From: Stutzerimonas xanthomarina DSM 18231
GTDB taxonomy: Bacteria > Pseudomonadota > Gammaproteobacteria > Pseudomonadales > Pseudomonadaceae
Length of the DNA stretch: 64,000 bases
NCBI RefSeq assembly: GCF_900129835.1
Contig: NZ_FQXA01000002.1
Location: 372,001-436,000, forward strand
Reading direction: 5' to 3'
Part shown: positions 23,202-35,107 of the stretch, piece by piece
Numbering within the stretch: position 1 is the first letter of the stretch
Layout: the number at the start of each line of letters is the position of its first letter
Program-made: the position numbers and the translations under genes
The notes under the pieces: model-generated
What the model saw: only the letters and a program-made list of their open reading frames with translations
Told to the model about the DNA's origin: nothing
Database searches by the model: none

Positions 23202-23230
23202 ATATCAACCATTAGTTGATGTCTTGTCAA
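23202..23230 (-). promoter_or_regulatory. Leftward early promoter (pL-like)
   Basis: On the minus strand TTGACA (23230-23225), exactly 17 bases, and TGATAT (23207-23202). The -35 is perfect and the spacing ideal. Two repressor operators cover both elements. It would drive the recombination operon to 18.7 kb. Confidence 0.85.
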
Positions 23231-23245
23231 CAACCGATAGTTGAT
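23204..23245. promoter_or_regulatory. Left operators (two CI/Cro sites)
   Basis: Site 1, 23204-23220, is a perfect dyad ATCAAC-CATTA-GTTGAT over the -10. Site 2, 23229-23245, AACAAC-CGATA-GTTGAT, matches five of six bases in its left half and touches the -35. Centre spacing is 25 bp. The same sequence recurs three times between cI and cro. Confidence 0.85.
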
Positions 23246-23367
23246 AACTGGTGCGGTGTATCGATCGATGATCAGGGCGCCGTGGCGAGAAGGGAGCAAC
23301 CGGCACTTCACTAGCGCTGTGCATCGTCTAGGCTGATCTAAAGGTCAAACGAGTGGTGGTATGTGGT

Positions 23368-23793
23368 ATGTGCGGAGGCGTAGAGGCTCGCGATGCCGAG
23401 CGGTCATTCAAGGTCTATTTCCCCAGCCCCAAAGCCGCGTTCCCTGTGATGCTGGAAGGCGGTGAAGCGCTTGGCTGGGTAAAATGGGGCAGGAGAAGGG
23501 AGGAGGCCGGCAGAGGCCCGCAAGGTGGCTGGGCGCGCCTGGAGACGGTCGAGTGGGGCGGCTGGGACAAGTACAGGCCGCAGCGCGCGTTAGGGCTGAT
23601 CGACCGCTACATGGAGAAGGACGCCAGCCGGAAGTCGCACTGGTTCGATATGCAGCCCGGCTATGGGCTGGACTGCCTGGTGCTGGGCGAGGGTGAAGCT
23701 CGGCGCGTGTATGTGGTTACCAGCACGCCGCCGGAGGCGTATGCGTGGATCCATGATCGCTGGCCGATGGTGCGCAATTTGGAGACGGGGTAG
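23368..23793 (+). CDS. SRAP-like (HMCES/YedK-related) protein
   Basis: 141 residues from ATG 23368, chosen so that Cys is residue 2, as required in SRAP enzymes, where it forms a covalent link to abasic sites in single-stranded DNA. Other matching points are WGRR, ARLETV (compare the family N-A-R-x-E-T; Asn replaced by Trp), the Glu in DRYMEKD, and the His in WIHDRWPMV. It is shorter than typical SRAP proteins (about 200-230), so it may be a reduced phage version. It stands alone on the plus strand between pL and the immunity operon terminator. It probably protects phage DNA or modulates repair, which is inference. Confidence 0.6.
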   Translation: MCGGVEARDAERSFKVYFPSPKAAFPVMLEGGEALGWVKWGRRREEAGRGPQGGWARLETVEWGGWDKYRPQRALGLIDRYMEKDASRKSHWFDMQPGYGLDCLVLGEGEARRVYVVTSTPPEAYAWIHDRWPMVRNLETG

Positions 23794-23796
23794 TTG

Positions 23797-23823
23797 CAAA
23801 AAGCCCCGCTAAATGCGGGGCTT
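23797..23823 (-). terminator. Intrinsic terminator of the immunity operon
   Basis: AAGCCCCGC, a 5-base loop and GCGGGGCTT form a perfect 9-bp stem. The T run follows on the minus strand, so it stops leftward transcription coming from cI through the HIRAN gene. Rightward, it lies 8 bp after the SRAP-like gene but lacks a T run. Confidence 0.85.
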
Positions 23824-23850: not shown

Positions 23851-24549
23851 TCACGAGTATTTCACTAAAACTATAATTCCCAGTTTCGATCTAGAAACAA
23901 AGGTCTTTAAGATTGTTCCGCGCACGGTTCCCTCTCGTAATAATCTCCTAAAGCTCGGCGCCAGCGCTTTGTTTACGTAACCGATTTTAGAGCCGCGTAA
24001 CTCAACTCTAATAGCTTGGCCATCGTGCTTGTTATCATCGTCCGTTATAAAATCGACTTCATCTCCCTCTGCTAGCGCCCGGCTTGGGTCATGATAATGA
24101 TGTGCTCCTGAAAGTTCGATCACGAAATCGAGCGGCGCTTTCGCATCACTCAGGTCCGGGCAGAGCTCAAACGTATCGCTAGCTAGGCGCGCTCCGGTAT
24201 ATCCGAGAAGAGAGAATGGTGAGCCGGAAAAATCTGGCGGTAAATTGTACTGGCCAAGATACTCTTTGAAATCCTCTCGCTTGCGAGGCGGAATCCTGCG
24301 TAAAAAGACATCGAGCGCACCTGCCTGTGAGGCGTTATCTTTTTTATCTGCAAATGCAGGAAACTCAAAAAAGCCCTCGTTCAATGCGGCTTCGAAATCA
24401 TCGGTTCCTTTTAGGTACCGAAAGACAGCGTCATCTCCCTGCCTAACAAGCTCGCCTACGACTCGCCGATGGCGTGGTTGGCTTTCATCCGTGGGATGCC
24501 AGACCAAAAGCAGTCGTGATGGCTCATAGATGTGTTCGATCGCACTCAT
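23851..24549 (-). CDS. HIRAN-domain protein paired with a HipA-like kinase
   Basis: 232 residues. The C-terminal 110 residues fit a HIRAN domain: VIELSGAHHYHD, then a loop DFITDDDNKHDGQAIRVEL and GSKIGYVNKALA. HIRAN domains bind DNA ends or damaged DNA in larger enzymes such as HLTF (3'-OH recognition), and stand-alone copies occur in bacteria and prophages. The N-terminal half (residues 1-120) has the look of a HipA N-terminal-type domain (VGELVRQGDDAVFRYL, then SPFSLLG), but I am unsure. The ATG overlaps the kinase stop by 4 bases, so the two proteins are made together. It is the last gene of the lysogeny operon. Confidence 0.72.
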   Translation of the reverse strand: MSAIEHIYEPSRLLLVWHPTDESQPRHRRVVGELVRQGDDAVFRYLKGTDDFEAALNEGFFEFPAFADKKDNASQAGALDVFLRRIPPRKREDFKEYLGQYNLPPDFSGSPFSLLGYTGARLASDTFELCPDLSDAKAPLDFVIELSGAHHYHDPSRALAEGDEVDFITDDDNKHDGQAIRVELRGSKIGYVNKALAPSFRRLLREGTVRGTILKTFVSRSKLGIIVLVKYS

Positions 24550-25517
24550 GCTAGTTTTTCCGTCAGAAGCTCGGCGCGTCTACGCGTTAGCCGAAGAATG
24601 AATTCGGCGCGTTCAGACGTCAGATTAGCACCATCAGGTGCAGGCAAAGCAACCAGCTGGTCAAGGATCGTTGCCAGCCGGCCGATATCGAAGCCTTTGA
24701 GCTTTTTCGAGAGCAATAATTTCACGTCAGATTTTTTTTCGACCAGGGCAAAGCAATTTATGTGCCCGATGCGCTCGCCCGAATCTCGGGTGTAACGCAG
24801 GTGGTGTTTACCTCGGAGTATGTACCGATCAAGTGCCCCGTCATCCCATTTAGTAAACTTTGCCGGAAGCAATTCATGCCCTAGGCTTGTACCGTTATCA
24901 AACCACGGCGCAAACCTCCACTTAACATCAAACTTTTCTTGCCGTCGCCTAGCTACACTTTTAGATAACGGAACAGCCTTTAACAGATGGCCCCAGTTAT
25001 CCTGATGTCGGTCTGTATTACCGATCAAAGAGTCAAAAAGCATCATGCTCCAAAACTCATATATCTGATTTCTGCCTAGGACGCGATTATTGAACGTGTC
25101 TGCGTCAATGATATTGTGCTGGGTTCCTTTGTCCCGGTCGAAATCGGGAACCCATTTATGGAAGAAGTTTCCGGCTGAATAAAATGACTCGTCACCTTCT
25201 TCATAAAACCAAGGACTTAACGCGCCGCATTGGCTCCGGCTTGAGTCAATCGCAGCGAAACATGGGGGAGCGTTTACGCTAAGTAGCATCGCTACCTGAT
25301 ATGCAATTATTTCCGCCCAGTACTGCTCTGGATATTTCTTGTCGGAGCGCTTAAACATATGGCGCCAATCGCTAAGAATGAAAAGCTCATCGGGATCGCC
25401 AGGAGAAAAGACTGTTCGTTTTGGCCGCGCGCCTTCAGGATATGCAGCTGAGAACTCGGCATCTTCCGGCCAGTGCGCGATCTCTATAATAGATTTCTGA
25501 ACAAACTGCTGCTTCAT
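24546..25517 (-). CDS. HipA-like protein kinase, HIRAN-associated
   Basis: 323 residues resembling the catalytic half of HipA kinases without the usual N-terminal domain. Candidate ATP-binding residues lie in WRHMFKRSDKK and EIIAYQVAMLL. The catalytic loop is GNTDRHQDNWG (Asp169, His171, Asn174), and the metal-binding site is WFDNGTSLG (Asp207). HipA proteins phosphorylate translation factors or tRNA synthetases and cause dormancy. No HipB-type antitoxin lies next to it; the partner is the HIRAN protein. The ribosome site is weak. It probably senses something through the HIRAN protein, which is inference. Confidence 0.72.
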   Translation of the reverse strand: MKQQFVQKSIIEIAHWPEDAEFSAAYPEGARPKRTVFSPGDPDELFILSDWRHMFKRSDKKYPEQYWAEIIAYQVAMLLSVNAPPCFAAIDSSRSQCGALSPWFYEEGDESFYSAGNFFHKWVPDFDRDKGTQHNIIDADTFNNRVLGRNQIYEFWSMMLFDSLIGNTDRHQDNWGHLLKAVPLSKSVARRRQEKFDVKWRFAPWFDNGTSLGHELLPAKFTKWDDGALDRYILRGKHHLRYTRDSGERIGHINCFALVEKKSDVKLLLSKKLKGFDIGRLATILDQLVALPAPDGANLTSERAEFILRLTRRRAELLTEKLA

Positions 25518-25563
25518 ATGGCAACCCTGGATTTGGTAAGCGCAACGAAACTACTCTCTGCGC

Positions 25564-25770
25564 TCATGCCTCTTCTAACTCGCTCCGCAATATCTGCAGG
25601 TCCAGCGGCGCCTCGATCGCGATCTGTGTGCGACTGCCCTTGATGCCTTTGACCGTCACGGTGATGCCGTCGAGAAGGAGCTGCGCTAGCAGGTCGTCAG
25701 CGTTTGTACCCGGCTGAACGCGCAGCGTGATCTTTTCGCCTTCGCGGCGGGTGAGTACTAGATAGCTCAT
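25564..25770 (-). CDS. csrA: Prophage CsrA/RsmA-like RNA-binding protein
   Basis: 68 residues. The ends are CsrA-like: YLVLTRREGEKI at the N-terminus (strand 1 with Leu and Arg-Arg), then ITVTVKGIKGSRTQIAIEAPLDLQILRSELEE, which keeps the Arg equivalent to CsrA Arg44 nine residues on from the Ala-Pro. An insertion of about ten residues (RVQPGTNADDLLAQLLL) replaces the short turn between the first strands. CsrA proteins bind GGA-containing leaders and repress translation. AAGGAAG precedes the ATG. It is carried between the two kinase modules in the lysogeny operon. It may compete with host RsmA or its small RNAs. Confidence 0.8.
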   Translation of the reverse strand: MSYLVLTRREGEKITLRVQPGTNADDLLAQLLLDGITVTVKGIKGSRTQIAIEAPLDLQILRSELEEA

Positions 25771-25812
25771 GGTTTCGCTTCCTTGCGTTGTTAGATTGTA
25801 TGGAGGGCTGGC

Positions 25813-26025
25813 CTAGCCGCGCCGGGGGTACGCGTTGCAGTGCTTAGATAGGACTGAGAGCGCGGCTTGGGAGTGCGCCTTCTCTAAGTTTGCGACCATG
25901 CACTCTTCCCAAGTGCTCGGCTTGCTGTGGTTAACACTCAGGACGCCTGCGGCGTAAGCCAGCACTGCCGTTCCGGCAAACATCCCAGTAAGTAGCGCAC
26001 GAGGGATCGGGCGGCTCTTGTCCAT
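25813..26025 (-). CDS. Small single-pass membrane protein
   Basis: 70 residues from ATG 26025, chosen for its AAGGA site; the frame is open 18 codons upstream. Basic N-terminus, one helix (LLTGMFAGTAVLAYAAGVL), then a periplasmic tail with two cysteines (ECMVANLEK and SKHCNAY) that could form a disulfide. It lies between the DUF3037-like and csrA genes, in the same operon. A superinfection-exclusion role is possible but unsupported by homology. Confidence 0.6.
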   Translation of the reverse strand: MDKSRPIPRALLTGMFAGTAVLAYAAGVLSVNHSKPSTWEECMVANLEKAHSQAALSVLSKHCNAYPRRG

Positions 26026-26057
26026 GTGCAGTTCCTTCTGATGGGGGCTCGCTTGAT

Positions 26058-26945
26058 TCAGGCGCAGCGCTCGCGCCACCAGCCAACGGTGAGGTCGGCC
26101 AGTTCGCCGGTGTTGTTGGCTTCGATAACTTGAATTCCGGTCGCACGGATACGGTCTATCTGCCGGCGGGTGGCGGCGTCGTGCTTGCGAAACTCTTGGT
26201 CGGTCAGGCCGCTGCTGGCGTTGGGCACTAAAACAGATATGGCGGCTGCTTGCCGGTCCGAATTGCTTCGGATGAGGTTTAGGTCGGCTGAGGCCTGCAA
26301 TAGGTTGATCTCTACCACCAACGGGCTTTTGTACCAGGCCGATACAATGGTCCCTGATGCGGTTGAGCTGAGCAGGGGAACGTCCATTTCGATGCGATGG
26401 CCGCTGTTGCGTAGTGGTAGCTGGAACCGTTCAGTCTGGATGATGCGAGACGCCTGCATATGCATGCGCTGCTTCATCAGATCAAATACCGAAGAACGAA
26501 GCTTGGGCGTCGACTGGTATCGAAATGCATATTCCTGCGCACCCGCGCGAGGCCGACCTAGCGTGACTACGTCTTCATAGAACTCGTCGACGACTGACTC
26601 AGCACTCTCGCCGGAAGCGAAAAGCGGAGCACCGAGCCGTATGGTGTCGCTCAAAATCTCTGGCAGATCGGCGCCGGTCTCTATGATCGAGGCTTCGATG
26701 TCATACATAAGGTGAGCCAGATCATTCTGATCGATGCGGTTGTCGTAAAGACACTTAATGCGATCGAAGCTATCAAGCATGCGCACTTCAACCTTGCCGC
26801 CGTGAGTAAACATGACGCCAACGTTGAGATATTCGCCAGTGTCTTGGTCCAGGCAAACGCTAATCGGCCGCCAGTGCCCTTTGACAATCGGGGCATCGGA
26901 TTGCTGTTCAGTAAATCGGGAGCGTAGTCGGGCGACTGCGTTCAT
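26058..26945 (-). CDS. DUF3037-like partner protein of HipA-like kinase
   Basis: 295 residues, soluble. Residues 23-50 (RPISVCLDQDTGEYLNVGVMF) match the DUF3037 pattern in which an R-x-x-P...G-E-x-x-N-V-G-V motif opens the domain. Genes of this type are regularly found beside HipA-family kinases. Its ATG overlaps the kinase stop by 4 bases. The C-terminal 80 residues (DQEFRKHDAATRRQIDRIRATGIQVIEANN) form a separate small domain. Whether it is an antitoxin, substrate or sensor is unknown. Confidence 0.6.
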   Translation of the reverse strand: MNAVARLRSRFTEQQSDAPIVKGHWRPISVCLDQDTGEYLNVGVMFTHGGKVEVRMLDSFDRIKCLYDNRIDQNDLAHLMYDIEASIIETGADLPEILSDTIRLGAPLFASGESAESVVDEFYEDVVTLGRPRAGAQEYAFRYQSTPKLRSSVFDLMKQRMHMQASRIIQTERFQLPLRNSGHRIEMDVPLLSSTASGTIVSAWYKSPLVVEINLLQASADLNLIRSNSDRQAAAISVLVPNASSGLTDQEFRKHDAATRRQIDRIRATGIQVIEANNTGELADLTVGWWRERCA

Positions 26946-27820
26946 ATAACGTGGCCTGCTGCCTTTGCGTAGGATGCGGGATCGAACAGATCTTGCAGCA
27001 ACTGGATGATGGCGTCGATGTCGATCTGGTCGAAGAATTCGGACAGCACTTGCCTCGCTGCGTTCTCGCCATCCTGCCGGAAGCTGACTGCAAAGCCATT
27101 ATAGGCCATTACCCGAGCGCTGGAGTTGGGCAGCTTCTCACTCCAGTGCGGGTTGTGAAGGTCGATCAGCCATTGAAGCTTGTTCATGCAGGGTTCGGGA
27201 AAGGTTCCAGTGCCTCCCGGCGCCCAGTTGGGAAAGTTGAGAATGCGGCCGTGGTCGATCAAGGTGAGCCCGCTGGGTCCGGATGCAAGCAAATTTCCAG
27301 CGTTGCGATCCGAGTTCAACAACCAGCCATCGAAAGCAATGACCTTCGGAGAGTCCGGGTTCTTCGCCAACTCCAGAGAAAGGCGCTTCAGGCGACGATC
27401 ATGCAGCGAAGTCAGCTGCTGCCCATTCAGGTGCCGCTGCTTTAGGCTCGGAAAATCCATGTCCTGGCTGAACCAGCAGAAATAGTTTTCTTGTTCGTGG
27501 CGGCCCGCAGCCCTATCCAGCTCGGCCCAGAGCGAAGATGGAATCTGCTCCCTGTCGAGCATCACAATGCCCGCCGCTGATGGAACCGTCAGGCCGCATG
27601 ATTTAGCGAGCACGTATCCTAGGGCTTCATTGATCAGCTCTTGGTTGGCAACAAACCTTCCCGTGGTCGGGCACTGGATCTGGTCGGTGAGCGGCTTGAC
27701 ATAGCAGCGAGCTGAGCCGGTTGCTGTGCGAATCTTGGCCCGAAAAATGGGGCTGATTCCCTTACTGCCAGGCTCGCGAAGCGTGCCCCCAAAAGCCTCA
27801 CGGCTCAGAATTTCAATCAT
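26942..27820 (-). CDS. HipA-family kinase, DUF3037-associated
   Basis: 292 residues with a HipA/PI-kinase-like fold: nucleotide-binding Lys42 in RCYVKPL, helix NEALGYVLAKSCGLTVP, Asp164 in AFDGWLLNSDRNAGNLL with the catalytic loop Asp171/Asn176, and metal-binding Asp189 in LIDHG. It differs clearly from the kinase at 25 kb, so the operon holds two unrelated copies rather than a duplication. It starts 8 bases inside cI, giving coupled translation and expression whenever repressor is made. Confidence 0.75.
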   Translation of the reverse strand: MIEILSREAFGGTLREPGSKGISPIFRAKIRTATGSARCYVKPLTDQIQCPTTGRFVANQELINEALGYVLAKSCGLTVPSAAGIVMLDREQIPSSLWAELDRAAGRHEQENYFCWFSQDMDFPSLKQRHLNGQQLTSLHDRRLKRLSLELAKNPDSPKVIAFDGWLLNSDRNAGNLLASGPSGLTLIDHGRILNFPNWAPGGTGTFPEPCMNKLQWLIDLHNPHWSEKLPNSSARVMAYNGFAVSFRQDGENAARQVLSEFFDQIDIDAIIQLLQDLFDPASYAKAAGHVI

Positions 27821-28355
27821 TGGACTTAAATTTTTCCCTAAGCTTTTGGTAGCTTCCAGCTCGGCTTTTTGCGTTACCTACGGGGGCGCTTTCAAAGCGA
27901 GCAGCAATCCGATCCAACAACTCAACATCATCATCGGTTAGCCGCCCTTGAGCGGCCGCCATTGCGATTCTTTCGAGAATCTGCCGCGACCGAGGCGTGG
28001 CGATCATAGCGAGCATATTTACCTGTCCGGCAGCTATGTCGCGCGCCGGCCTGTTCTCTGCCACTCCTGCCGCCAATGAATCAGCGGAAGCTAGCATCGG
28101 GCCAACGCCGTACTCGAGCCATTCAGCACGCACGTTTAGCCAACCGGCTAGCGCCCGCAGATTGTCCTTCTCTGGGATTGACTCAGCGCGCAGCCATTTA
28201 TTGGTTGCCTGAAGAGATGCTTCAACGCCGATTTTCTTTAACGCGGCTTGCAGATCGGTGTTGCGGCCGCGCCCCTTCCTGACGCCCGGCGCATCGTCCA
28301 ATGAAGTGTTGAGGCGGGCAGCGAAAGCCGCACGGATTTCCTGAGAGTCAACCAT
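27813..28355 (-). CDS. CI-type prophage repressor without peptidase domain
   Basis: 180 residues from ATG 28355. The frame is open to 28574 but would run through the operators and cro. The N-terminal helix-turn-helix region lies at about residues 25-90 (LQAALKKIGVEASLQATNKWL, then IPEKDNLRALAGWLNVRAEWLEYG), typical of lambdoid repressors that end this domain with A-x-W-L-x-x-G. The remaining 90 residues are helical (oligomerisation), with no LexA/S24 Ser-Lys peptidase motif. So RecA-triggered self-cleavage is not expected. One operator spans its start codon, suggesting autoregulation. Its operon continues into the kinase genes. Confidence 0.85.
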   Translation of the reverse strand: MVDSQEIRAAFAARLNTSLDDAPGVRKGRGRNTDLQAALKKIGVEASLQATNKWLRAESIPEKDNLRALAGWLNVRAEWLEYGVGPMLASADSLAAGVAENRPARDIAAGQVNMLAMIATPRSRQILERIAMAAAQGRLTDDDVELLDRIAARFESAPVGNAKSRAGSYQKLREKFKSND

Positions 28356-28420
28356 GGGTTGATCTTGCCACGCCAGTTGCGCAACAGTCAGTTGATCTTT
28401 AATATCAACCGATAGTTGAT
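28347..28420. promoter_or_regulatory. Right operator region: three repressor sites and divergent promoters
   Basis: Sites: 28347-28363 GTCAAC-CATGG-GTTGAT (covers the cI start codon), 28380-28396 CGCAAC-AGTCA-GTTGAT, and 28404-28420 ATCAAC-CGATA-GTTGAT (perfect). Centre spacings are 33 and 24 bp. The rightward promoter is probably TTGCGC (28377-28382), 17 bases, TAATAT (28400-28405), so the middle and right sites would shut off cro. The leftward cI promoter must start within this region, but I cannot fix it. Confidence 0.8.
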
Positions 28421-28434
28421 CAATAGGACGAACC

Positions 28435-28833
28435 ATGAACGCAATCTCCATAGCGGTCGAGAAGGTTGGGGGCCCGATTTCTGCGGCCGAGATATGTGGC
28501 ATCCGCCGCCAGGCAATTGATAAGTGGCTTGCTCGCGGTTCTTTACCTCGCACCGAATACACCGGTGAAACCAATTACGCCTCTCGCTTGGCTGACGCCT
28601 CGAACGGTGATTTCACAGCCGAGTGGCTGCTTGCAGCAGCGGCGCCTACCAAGAGTGCGGCTGCCCTATCAGGCAGCCGTAAACCGGCTCTCGCTGGAGA
28701 GCGCCGCTCGCCCCGCAAGCCAGCCGACCGCCGGGGCCGGCGCGACACCGATCTATCCACTCAAGAAGCCAAAGAACTGCTGGAGAGCGCCGAGAAGATC
28801 GCCGGCACGCTGCAGCGGATCGCCAAGGATTGA
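28435..28833 (+). CDS. Cro/YdaS-like regulator
   Basis: 132 residues. The N-terminal helix-turn-helix is SIAVEKVGGPISAAEICGIR followed by RQAIDKWLARGSLP, the YdaS/Cro pattern. A Pro/Arg/Ala-rich linker and a C-terminal helix (TQEAKELLESAEKIAGTLQRI) extend it beyond the 70 or so residues of a minimal Cro. It is divergent from cI, 14 bp after the last operator. It should repress cI expression and favour lytic growth. Confidence 0.8.
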   Translation: MNAISIAVEKVGGPISAAEICGIRRQAIDKWLARGSLPRTEYTGETNYASRLADASNGDFTAEWLLAAAAPTKSAAALSGSRKPALAGERRSPRKPADRRGRRDTDLSTQEAKELLESAEKIAGTLQRIAKD

Positions 28834-34155: not shown

Positions 34156-34299
34156 ATGACAGACAAGATGAAGCAGGGGCAGACGGAGCAAAGGGGCATC
34201 AACGAGGGGTTGAACGTGAATCCGGGCAGGACGACAAACGTGATGCCCAAGAGCCCACCACCATCGCCGCCGCCTGCGAAAAAGTCGAATGACTCCTAA
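34156..34299 (+). CDS. Small Pro-rich phage protein
   Basis: 47 residues, ATG with AGGAGCAGGG upstream. The polar first half (MTDKMKQGQTEQRGINEGL) is followed by a Pro/Ser tail (PKSPPPSPPPAKK). It is followed by a terminator. Function unknown. Confidence 0.45.
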   Translation: MTDKMKQGQTEQRGINEGLNVNPGRTTNVMPKSPPPSPPPAKKSNDS

Positions 34300-34675: not shown

Positions 34676-35107
34676 GTTGGCGGCATTTGTGTCCGTAGCC
34701 AGGGCGGCCTTCGGGAGAGCCTGGACATCCCCAGCCGGCGGTGGGGCTCGTTCATTGAAAAACACCGGCAGCCCGTGCGAACCAGCTCCTACCTACGGTG
34801 GTTCGGCGCGAGGGTGATCCGCTGAGACTGGTGCAATAGGGTGCCAGCAGCAGATCGCCCTTTGGCAGACAGCGCGGAAAGACGCGCACAACTATTTTGA
34901 GGCCTCGCTAAGTGCGGGGCCTTGTCGTATCTGGTCCCGCCGTGAGGCGCTGCCAGGGCCACGTCGGGAGACGTTGCCACAAACCGCCCGGCTTCGGCTG
35001 GGCACCTCTTTCCGGCGCTCGGCCTGGGTCTTTGCTCCCTGGCGGATTTCAGCGCATGAGCGCCGGCTCTACATGACACCACCAGGCCCTGTGCCGGGAG
35101 TGCCCGC
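34676..35107. other. Gene-free stretch before the lysis genes
   Basis: About 430 bp without a convincing gene. It holds one more terminator-like hairpin at 34900-34926 (AGGCCTCGC-TAAGT-GCGGGGCCT, one G-T pair, then weak T). The late promoter and a Q-responsive region would be expected here. I cannot identify them. Confidence 0.5.

Follow-up and report, generated by a model that had tools for sequence, protein, structure and literature searches.

What does a prophage do with two kinase modules and a CsrA homologue placed behind its own repressor? The question is raised by a 64,000-nucleotide stretch of Stutzerimonas xanthomarina DSM 18231 (contig NZ_FQXA01000002.1, positions 372,001 to 436,000, forward strand; this whole stretch is called the window below, and coordinates refer to it), in which a repressor gene leads a block of seven genes. 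A first-pass annotation had read this block as an operon for defence of the lysogen or for host dormancy. By sequence comparison, the repressor is a member of a conserved cassette of repressor, HipA-like kinase and DUF3037-like partner, a point which that annotation had missed. In repressors of this kind the RecA-cleavable half has probably been swapped for a unit formed by a C-terminal domain, the kinase and its partner, a statement that concerns ancestry and linkage and not contact between the proteins. As to function, we give a probability of roughly 0.6 to the reading that two toxin-antitoxin modules with kinases as toxins are expressed from the operon in a lysogen, by which infection by another phage would be aborted. 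The genes of the operon are the following.

27813..28355, minus strand: repressor (cI), 180 aa, without S24 peptidase domain
27813..28013, minus strand: C-terminal domain and tail of the repressor, associated with the kinase (coordinates from alignment A3)
26942..27820, minus strand: HipA-like kinase 1 (class A; HipA_2-like)
26058..26945, minus strand: DUF3037-like partner, putative antitoxin
25813..26022, minus strand: small protein, 69 aa, with one membrane helix (by eye)
25564..25770, minus strand: CsrA family protein of the RsmN/RsmF type, 68 aa
24546..25517, minus strand: HipA_C kinase 2 (HipI-like)
23851..24549, minus strand: HipN-like protein with a HipS-like domain and HIRAN

All seven genes were found on the minus strand where the first-pass annotation had placed them. 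The overlaps that it reported hold for the repressor and kinase 1 (8 nt), for kinase 1 and the DUF3037-like gene (4 nt) and for kinase 2 and the HIRAN gene (4 nt), but not for every junction, the membrane-protein and csrA genes being flanked by gaps of 35, 42 and 46 nt.

Loci containing kinase 1 were gathered from phage records, viral contigs and species genomes, giving 35 loci that form 20 clusters at 95% identity. The DUF3037-like gene follows kinase 1 directly, with a 4-nt overlap, in 35/35. On the other side, the end of a repressor lacking S24 overlaps the kinase gene by 8, 20 or 23 nt in 14 of the 20 non-redundant loci, an S24 repressor above the cut-off precedes it without overlap in five (L010, L016, L018, L037 and L040), and in the remaining one, L015, no repressor was seen near the kinase; overlap was judged throughout with presumed kinase starts. 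The window repressor, scanned as 27813-28430, matched no Pfam family and gave a PHROG repressor match at 6.8e-7; its start is set at 28355, as in P0182, repressor starts in the set being those of the longest open reading frame (ORF) and partly over-extended. Peptidase_S24 was detected by Pfam neither in this repressor nor in the other 13 class-A repressors scanned. The motif of the C-terminal domain is [ST]PR[ST]..GRLTE.D..LL..IA.R.

Within the 14 clusters of class A, the similarity of this C-terminal domain follows that of kinase 1 closely (Spearman 0.70, with 0/2000 permutations as high) and that of the DUF gene to a lesser degree (0.42, 6/2000). The DNA-binding half of the same repressors follows neither the kinase (0.01) nor the C-terminal domain (-0.12), and of the 91 pairwise comparisons between DNA-binding halves, 78 stay under 0.12 of the self-score. 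Using the C-terminal domain as query, we reached a second HipA_2 kinase family with a different partner, here called class B, of which two members tested exceed the Pfam cut-off. The two kinase families are related according to hhalign (probability 98.4, E 9e-15); homology between the class-B partner and the DUF3037-like partner was considered and rejected (probability 0.8 of 100, E 0.07). A repressor with a related C-terminal domain overlaps the class-B kinase in 13/14 loci, the exception being a 29%-identical relative; it was the query, and not the relatives retrieved with it, that had been chosen via the domain. No S24 was found in the three of these 13 class-B repressors that were scanned. 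After two duplicates had been dropped, 11 of the 13 loci were used for comparison, and here too the C-terminal domain follows the kinase (0.84, 0/2000).

When the two classes are pooled (14 class A and 11 class B), the nearest neighbour by the C-terminal 40 residues shares the kinase class in 24 of 25 cases, against a shuffle mean of 12.2 and with 0/2000 shuffles as high, whereas for the DNA-binding half this happens in only 9/25 (1758/2000 as high). The class-A repressor L031 and the class-B repressor L151 agree at 64 of 73 N-terminal residues and yet have class-specific ends. DNA-binding halves of the cassette also resemble those of S24 repressors, most closely in the pairs L040/L005 (58/93 columns) and L016/L020 (57/94), less so for L018 (44/114), L037 (44/104) and L041 (35/91), and weakly for L010 and L008, with scores of 65 and 75, where 175 shuffled comparisons reached 55 at most. 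It is because the C-terminal domain predicts the kinase class, the DNA-binding half does not, and similar DNA-binding halves occur with S24, that we favour an exchange of repressor halves. In the limited library of titles and abstracts searched, nothing was found that links HipA kinases to phage repressors or describes repressor domain swapping, and nothing on the repeated replacement of the S24 half by a domain linked to a kinase, in two or more kinase families. The nearest published idea found is the HipR-HipF/HipG proposal of Gerdes and colleagues (PMC8262856).

Among 398 genomes of the family, a draw that partly repeats the 35 loci above, kinase 1 is matched by 18 with E values of 0.001 or less and by six below 1e-100. 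Five of these six carry the repressor domain, and the sixth has an S24 repressor and DNA identical to L010; as to two intermediate matches, L101 carries the domain and G083 does not. In L101 (1192-2575) the repressor carrying this C-terminal domain is overlapped by a third type of kinase, whose matches to PI3_PI4_kinase and HipA_2 both lie below the cut-off. The core of the domain was matched in 26/398 genomes, with an overlapping kinase in six. A domain exclusive to kinase loci is thereby rejected, as the other 20 had no match to kinase 1 or to the class-B kinase within the 3.1-3.3 kb fetched. Downstream genes were inspected in seven of these 20, six of them being without a kinase; in L102 (147-2031) a DUF262-like gene, assigned by eye, stands behind the repressor in the place of the kinase.

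Kinase 1 is a HipA-superfamily kinase with the catalytic motifs, as expected of HipAD (PADLOC PDC-M66). The DUF3037 assignment of its partner is remote for the window protein (E 0.22); of the 20 family members, 19 match DUF3037 with E values no higher than 1 (the best being 7.4e-5), and 19/20 match PDC-M66B at E up to 0.01 (best 5.1e-6). A search of PDB sequences with kinase 1 gave nothing informative. The likeness to HipAD, also described as DS-6, lies in a HipA-fold kinase followed by a DUF3037 protein expected to restrain it; here, in contrast, the sequences are remote, the pair lies within a phage repressor operon, and the repressor overlaps the kinase and has a C-terminal domain that co-varies with it. 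In a HipA-DUF3037 pair beside a retron, defence depends on the kinase, and removing the DUF3037 gene proves toxic (PMC12548924). The DS-6/HipAD systems consist of a HipA-like kinase and a DUF3037-DUF1829 partner, and in DS-6A mutation of a predicted catalytic residue abolishes defence (PMC13092281).

The second pair is, on sequence, of a known kind, the hipIN or PDC-M03 predicted toxin-antitoxin. Kinase 2 matches HipA_C at 1.6e-6 over residues 29-208 (28.4 of 30.5 bits), PDC-M03A at 4.5e-31 and the profile phrog_26212 over 4-308, and its catalytic and metal motifs are invariant in 46 aligned proteins. No Couple_hipA was found in it by Pfam scan, so that it presents the core without N-subdomain-1 that characterizes hipIN. 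Its neighbour matches HIRAN (2.1e-7), Couple_hipA (0.0098) and PDC-M03B (8e-30), and among 17 members of the HipN alignment, at E up to 0.1, all have HIRAN and 10/17 Couple_hipA (best 1.9e-6). A PDB sequence search with HipN returned nothing informative. The alignments comprise 46 of 61 homologues found (A1), 45 of 120 listed (A2) and 16 loci plus the window (A6). Kinase 2 is followed by HipN, or fused to it, in 46 of 50 viral loci. What is shared with the hipIN and HipL systems is a small HipA_C kinase with a downstream HipS-like and HIRAN protein, with fused forms in relatives (PMC8262856); the difference is that here the pair ends a cI operon and is stacked behind a second kinase module. 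It has been proposed that HipN is an antitoxin and that its HIRAN domain could recognise the ends of phage DNA (PMC8262856).

Close HipI-HipN relatives lie directly behind S24 phage repressors in L008 (1274-4285) and L041 (4682-7657), so that the position after the repressor is seen to be filled by different kinase modules. In a third close relative, L009, no repressor adjoins the pair (by eye). A fused kinase-HipS-HIRAN (HipL) gene is found in an Escherichia coli phage (L002, 5992-7635), with replication genes on one side and portal genes on the other; 61 of 5426 E. coli genomes contain it at a level of 99% or more. The gene order of this phage is, we presume, P2-like.

The surroundings of the operon resemble the immunity region of lambda, in which rexAB is cotranscribed with cI and placed between oL and oR. 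The present genes occupy the same place, behind cI and between oL-like and oR-like sites, and encode proteins unrelated to those of rexAB. The elements in question are these.

28435..28833, plus strand: divergent Cro/YdaS-like repressor (PHROG repressor 5.9e-10; YdaS 2.1e-4, below cut-off)
28349..28423: oR-like site, three copies of CAACNNNNNGTTGAT between the repressor and the Cro-like gene
23801..23823, minus strand: terminator-like hairpin at the end of the operon, 9 bp stem and T-run
23203..23246: oL-like site, two CAACNNNNNGTTGAT copies beyond the terminator

The palindrome CAACNNNNNGTTGAT has eight matches in the window, its strands counted apart, where 0.10 are expected and shuffled sequences gave at most one in 100 shuffles. 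Three sites lie between the repressor and the Cro-like gene, one of them at the repressor start codon, two at 23204-23245 and one at 34197-34215. The ends given to the operon by the first-pass annotation, cI operators on one side and a terminator at 23.8 kb on the other, agree with the three operator-like repeats at 28.35-28.42 kb and with the terminator-like hairpin; the two oL-like copies beyond the latter were absent from its account. The 9-bp hairpin at 23801-23823 is listed for the plus strand and leads on the minus strand into five T, two of them within the stem, and terminator-like sites in the stretch are not above chance (3 found, 5.4 expected). Since repeat copies are found on both sides, the operon occupies a lambda-like oL-oR region. 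The seven genes form one repressor-led block there, and they would be transcribed as a single unit in the lysogen. A sigma-70 scan found no site before the repressor and one weak minus-strand site within the operon (2 sites in the stretch, 3.1 expected), and it is uninformative on operon promoters because nothing convincing turned up in the whole stretch, the region in front of the repressor included. To the left of the 23.2-kb repeats are RecT, RecE and integrase genes. On its right side the Cro-like gene is followed by genes for a replication initiator and a P-like helicase loader and by those for terminase and tail. An ORF (23353-23793, plus strand, 146 aa) convergent to the operon lies in the interval from the oL-like sites to the terminator; it has no Pfam or PHROG match, and on that ground a resemblance to SRAP proteins was rejected. 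An Rfam Proteo-phage-1 RNA was detected at 34693-34773 (plus strand; 55.7 bits, gathering 42), and the palindrome at 34197-34215 lies ~480 bp upstream of it.

Between the two kinase modules, the CsrA-like protein (CsrA 3.7e-11) has its best PDB matches to RsmF 4k59 and RsmN 4kji, gap-free over residues 1-67, and this full-length match, including the inserted helix segment, places it, on sequence, in the RsmN/RsmF subfamily. The host assembly has one other CsrA gene. Only three of the 20 clusters, with this prophage among them, showed CsrA-family genes in the neighbourhood of the cassette, and these are of differing types; those of L001 (10641-11045) and L029 (8756-8941) belong to other subtypes and lie 1-3 kb behind the kinase-DUF3037 pair. 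The small membrane protein has a weak NCBIfam VF_A0006-like match (0.0028), far below cut-off, and a relative of it sits after the DUF gene in L005. In general, the cargo behind the DUF gene varies between close relatives.

The same gene order was sought in other prophages, using flanks of up to 6 kb, some of them cut by contig ends, and the seven genes occur together in no other locus fetched. The second kinase pair is absent within these flanks from the other 34 of 35 kinase-1 loci (L004 being the IMG/VR copy of this prophage), and the kinase-1 gene from the other 49 of 50 kinase-2 loci (L007 being the same copy); three unrelated long ORFs in kinase-2 loci match both kinase profiles weakly. 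We thus reject the seven genes as one conserved system. The first-pass view of an undescribed combination stands as far as the stacking is concerned, which is unique among the loci fetched, but each module had already been described.

Several known systems can be compared with this arrangement. One precedent for a toxin-antitoxin pair placed after a repressor lacking S24 is PaaR2-PaaA2-ParE2 of prophage CP-933P, where a CI-like repressor without peptidase motif is followed by such a pair in the immunity region, with a YdaS-like Cro as a further likeness (PMC8630535). The same layout is seen here, an S24-less repressor and then genes of predicted toxin-antitoxin type between operator clusters, the toxin being ParE there and a kinase in our case. 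HipF/HipG with HipR, compared by description only, joins a Hip-family kinase to a helix-turn-helix protein related to a mobile-element (Stl-like) repressor, with the suggestion that HipR is an antitoxin open to release by phage proteins (PMC8262856). That is a two-gene module of chromosomal type, whereas here the helix-turn-helix protein is the prophage immunity repressor, DUF3037 would act as the antitoxin, and there is exchange of the DNA-binding halves. KKP of Pf prophages also relies on prophage kinases, acting as a toxin-antitoxin defence and controlling lysogeny (PMC11341870); the present kinases belong to the HipA superfamily, the repressor is linked in cis, and family scans found no phosphatase among the seven operon proteins. 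In ICEBs1 and TnSmu1, ImmR is regulated by the product of the neighbouring gene and not by self-cleavage, ImmA being a metalloprotease that inactivates the repressor (PMC10233336); here the neighbour is a kinase, for which an action on the repressor is only predicted.

The favoured sequence of events would be as follows. The repressor would occupy oL and oR in the lysogen while leaving its own operon active, each kinase being kept inactive by its partner, the DUF3037-like protein in one case and the HipS-like domain of HipN in the other. Infection by another phage would disturb the complex of kinase and partner, perhaps when HIRAN meets DNA ends or replication intermediates, and the freed kinase would phosphorylate an essential factor (an aminoacyl-tRNA synthetase for known Hip kinases), so that growth stops before new phage is made. 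The least certain step is that the C-terminal domain of the repressor may contact kinase 1, the repressor then being the DNA-binding, HipB-like subunit of the module. By analogy with ImmR-ImmA and KKP, kinase 1 might also act on the repressor, which we regard as tentative. Equally tentative is the proposal of a class of phages without RecA control of the repressor, in which the S24 half would have been replaced by a domain docking on, or phosphorylated by, a HipA-family kinase.

A number of observations weigh against this reading. The defence function claimed by the first-pass annotation is upheld for relatives of the first kinase pair, which are experimentally anti-phage (PMC12548924, PMC13092281), but the seven-gene combination is not conserved, its full set being unique, and defence is predicted for this operon from those relatives. 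The window pair is itself remote from the tested HipAD proteins (PDC-M66A E 0.036, PDC-M66B 8.7e-4). Twenty of the 26 domain-carrying genomes had no match to either kinase profile in the 3.1-3.3 kb fetched, so that the domain core may simply be a plain dimerisation domain of the repressor. An AGG codon in its conserved tail keeps a constant distance to the kinase start that follows in 13 of the 14 loci, the remaining one having AAG; this is probably the ribosome-binding site of the kinase, and for that reason the tail was rejected as proof of a kinase-binding peptide. Nor is the DNA-binding half wholly independent: in class A it correlates weakly with the DUF gene (0.19, 73/2000), and in class B moderately with the C-terminal domain (0.49, 8/2000) and weakly with the kinase (0.35, 73/2000) and partner (0.35, 78/2000). 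The median similarity of the domain is little lower between classes (0.51) than within them (0.60), and physical linkage alone could produce the class correlation.

The strongest of the other explanations, possible in our opinion though clearly short of even odds, is that the slot behind the repressor is a cargo site whose cassettes recombine together with the adjacent repressor end, the domain only dimerising and making no kinase contact. Such a passenger would account for the core in repressors without a kinase match nearby, for the five S24 repressors in front of kinase 1 and those in front of HipIN, and for the differing cargo of close relatives; it fits poorly with an overlap restricted to S24-less repressors (14/14 versus 0/5, with the presumed starts) and with the same type of domain being joined, with class-specific sequence, to a second kinase family in 13/14 loci. 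We consider it rather unlikely that the operon serves primarily for addiction, kinase toxins with labile antitoxins killing cells that lose the prophage or its immunity region and defence being secondary, as could be argued from the translational overlap of repressor and kinase and from the addictive nature of the closest architectural precedent, PaaR2-PaaA2-ParE2 (PMC8630535). Against this stand the anti-phage relatives of the first pair and the fused form of the second, located between replication and portal genes of the E. coli phage and present in 61 of 5426 E. coli genomes. Still less probable is a role in host physiology, with the CsrA and the kinases slowing or reprogramming the lysogen towards dormancy or biofilm and phage defence as a by-product. 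The CsrA-like gene is of RsmN type along its length beside a single other CsrA gene of the host, and CsrA genes do recur on phages and plasmids (PMC7366521), but those near the cassette are few and of different types, and kinases left on would by analogy be toxic.

If the more tentative reading is right, in which the repressor domain docks on the kinase or is phosphorylated by it, a single complex of kinase and partner would both kill cells under attack by other phages and decide prophage exit. Repressor, kinase and partner would form a three-part switch of HipB-, HipA- and antitoxin-like components, with at least two kinase families, in which DNA-binding halves swap freely and change the immunity type. 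The end of an S24-less repressor overlapping a HipA-like kinase would be a sequence marker for such prophages. A repressor C-terminal domain paired with a defence kinase could tie to one protein complex both the sensing of when to leave, in phages lacking a RecA-cleavable repressor, and the restraint that stops the defence from acting on its own prophage.

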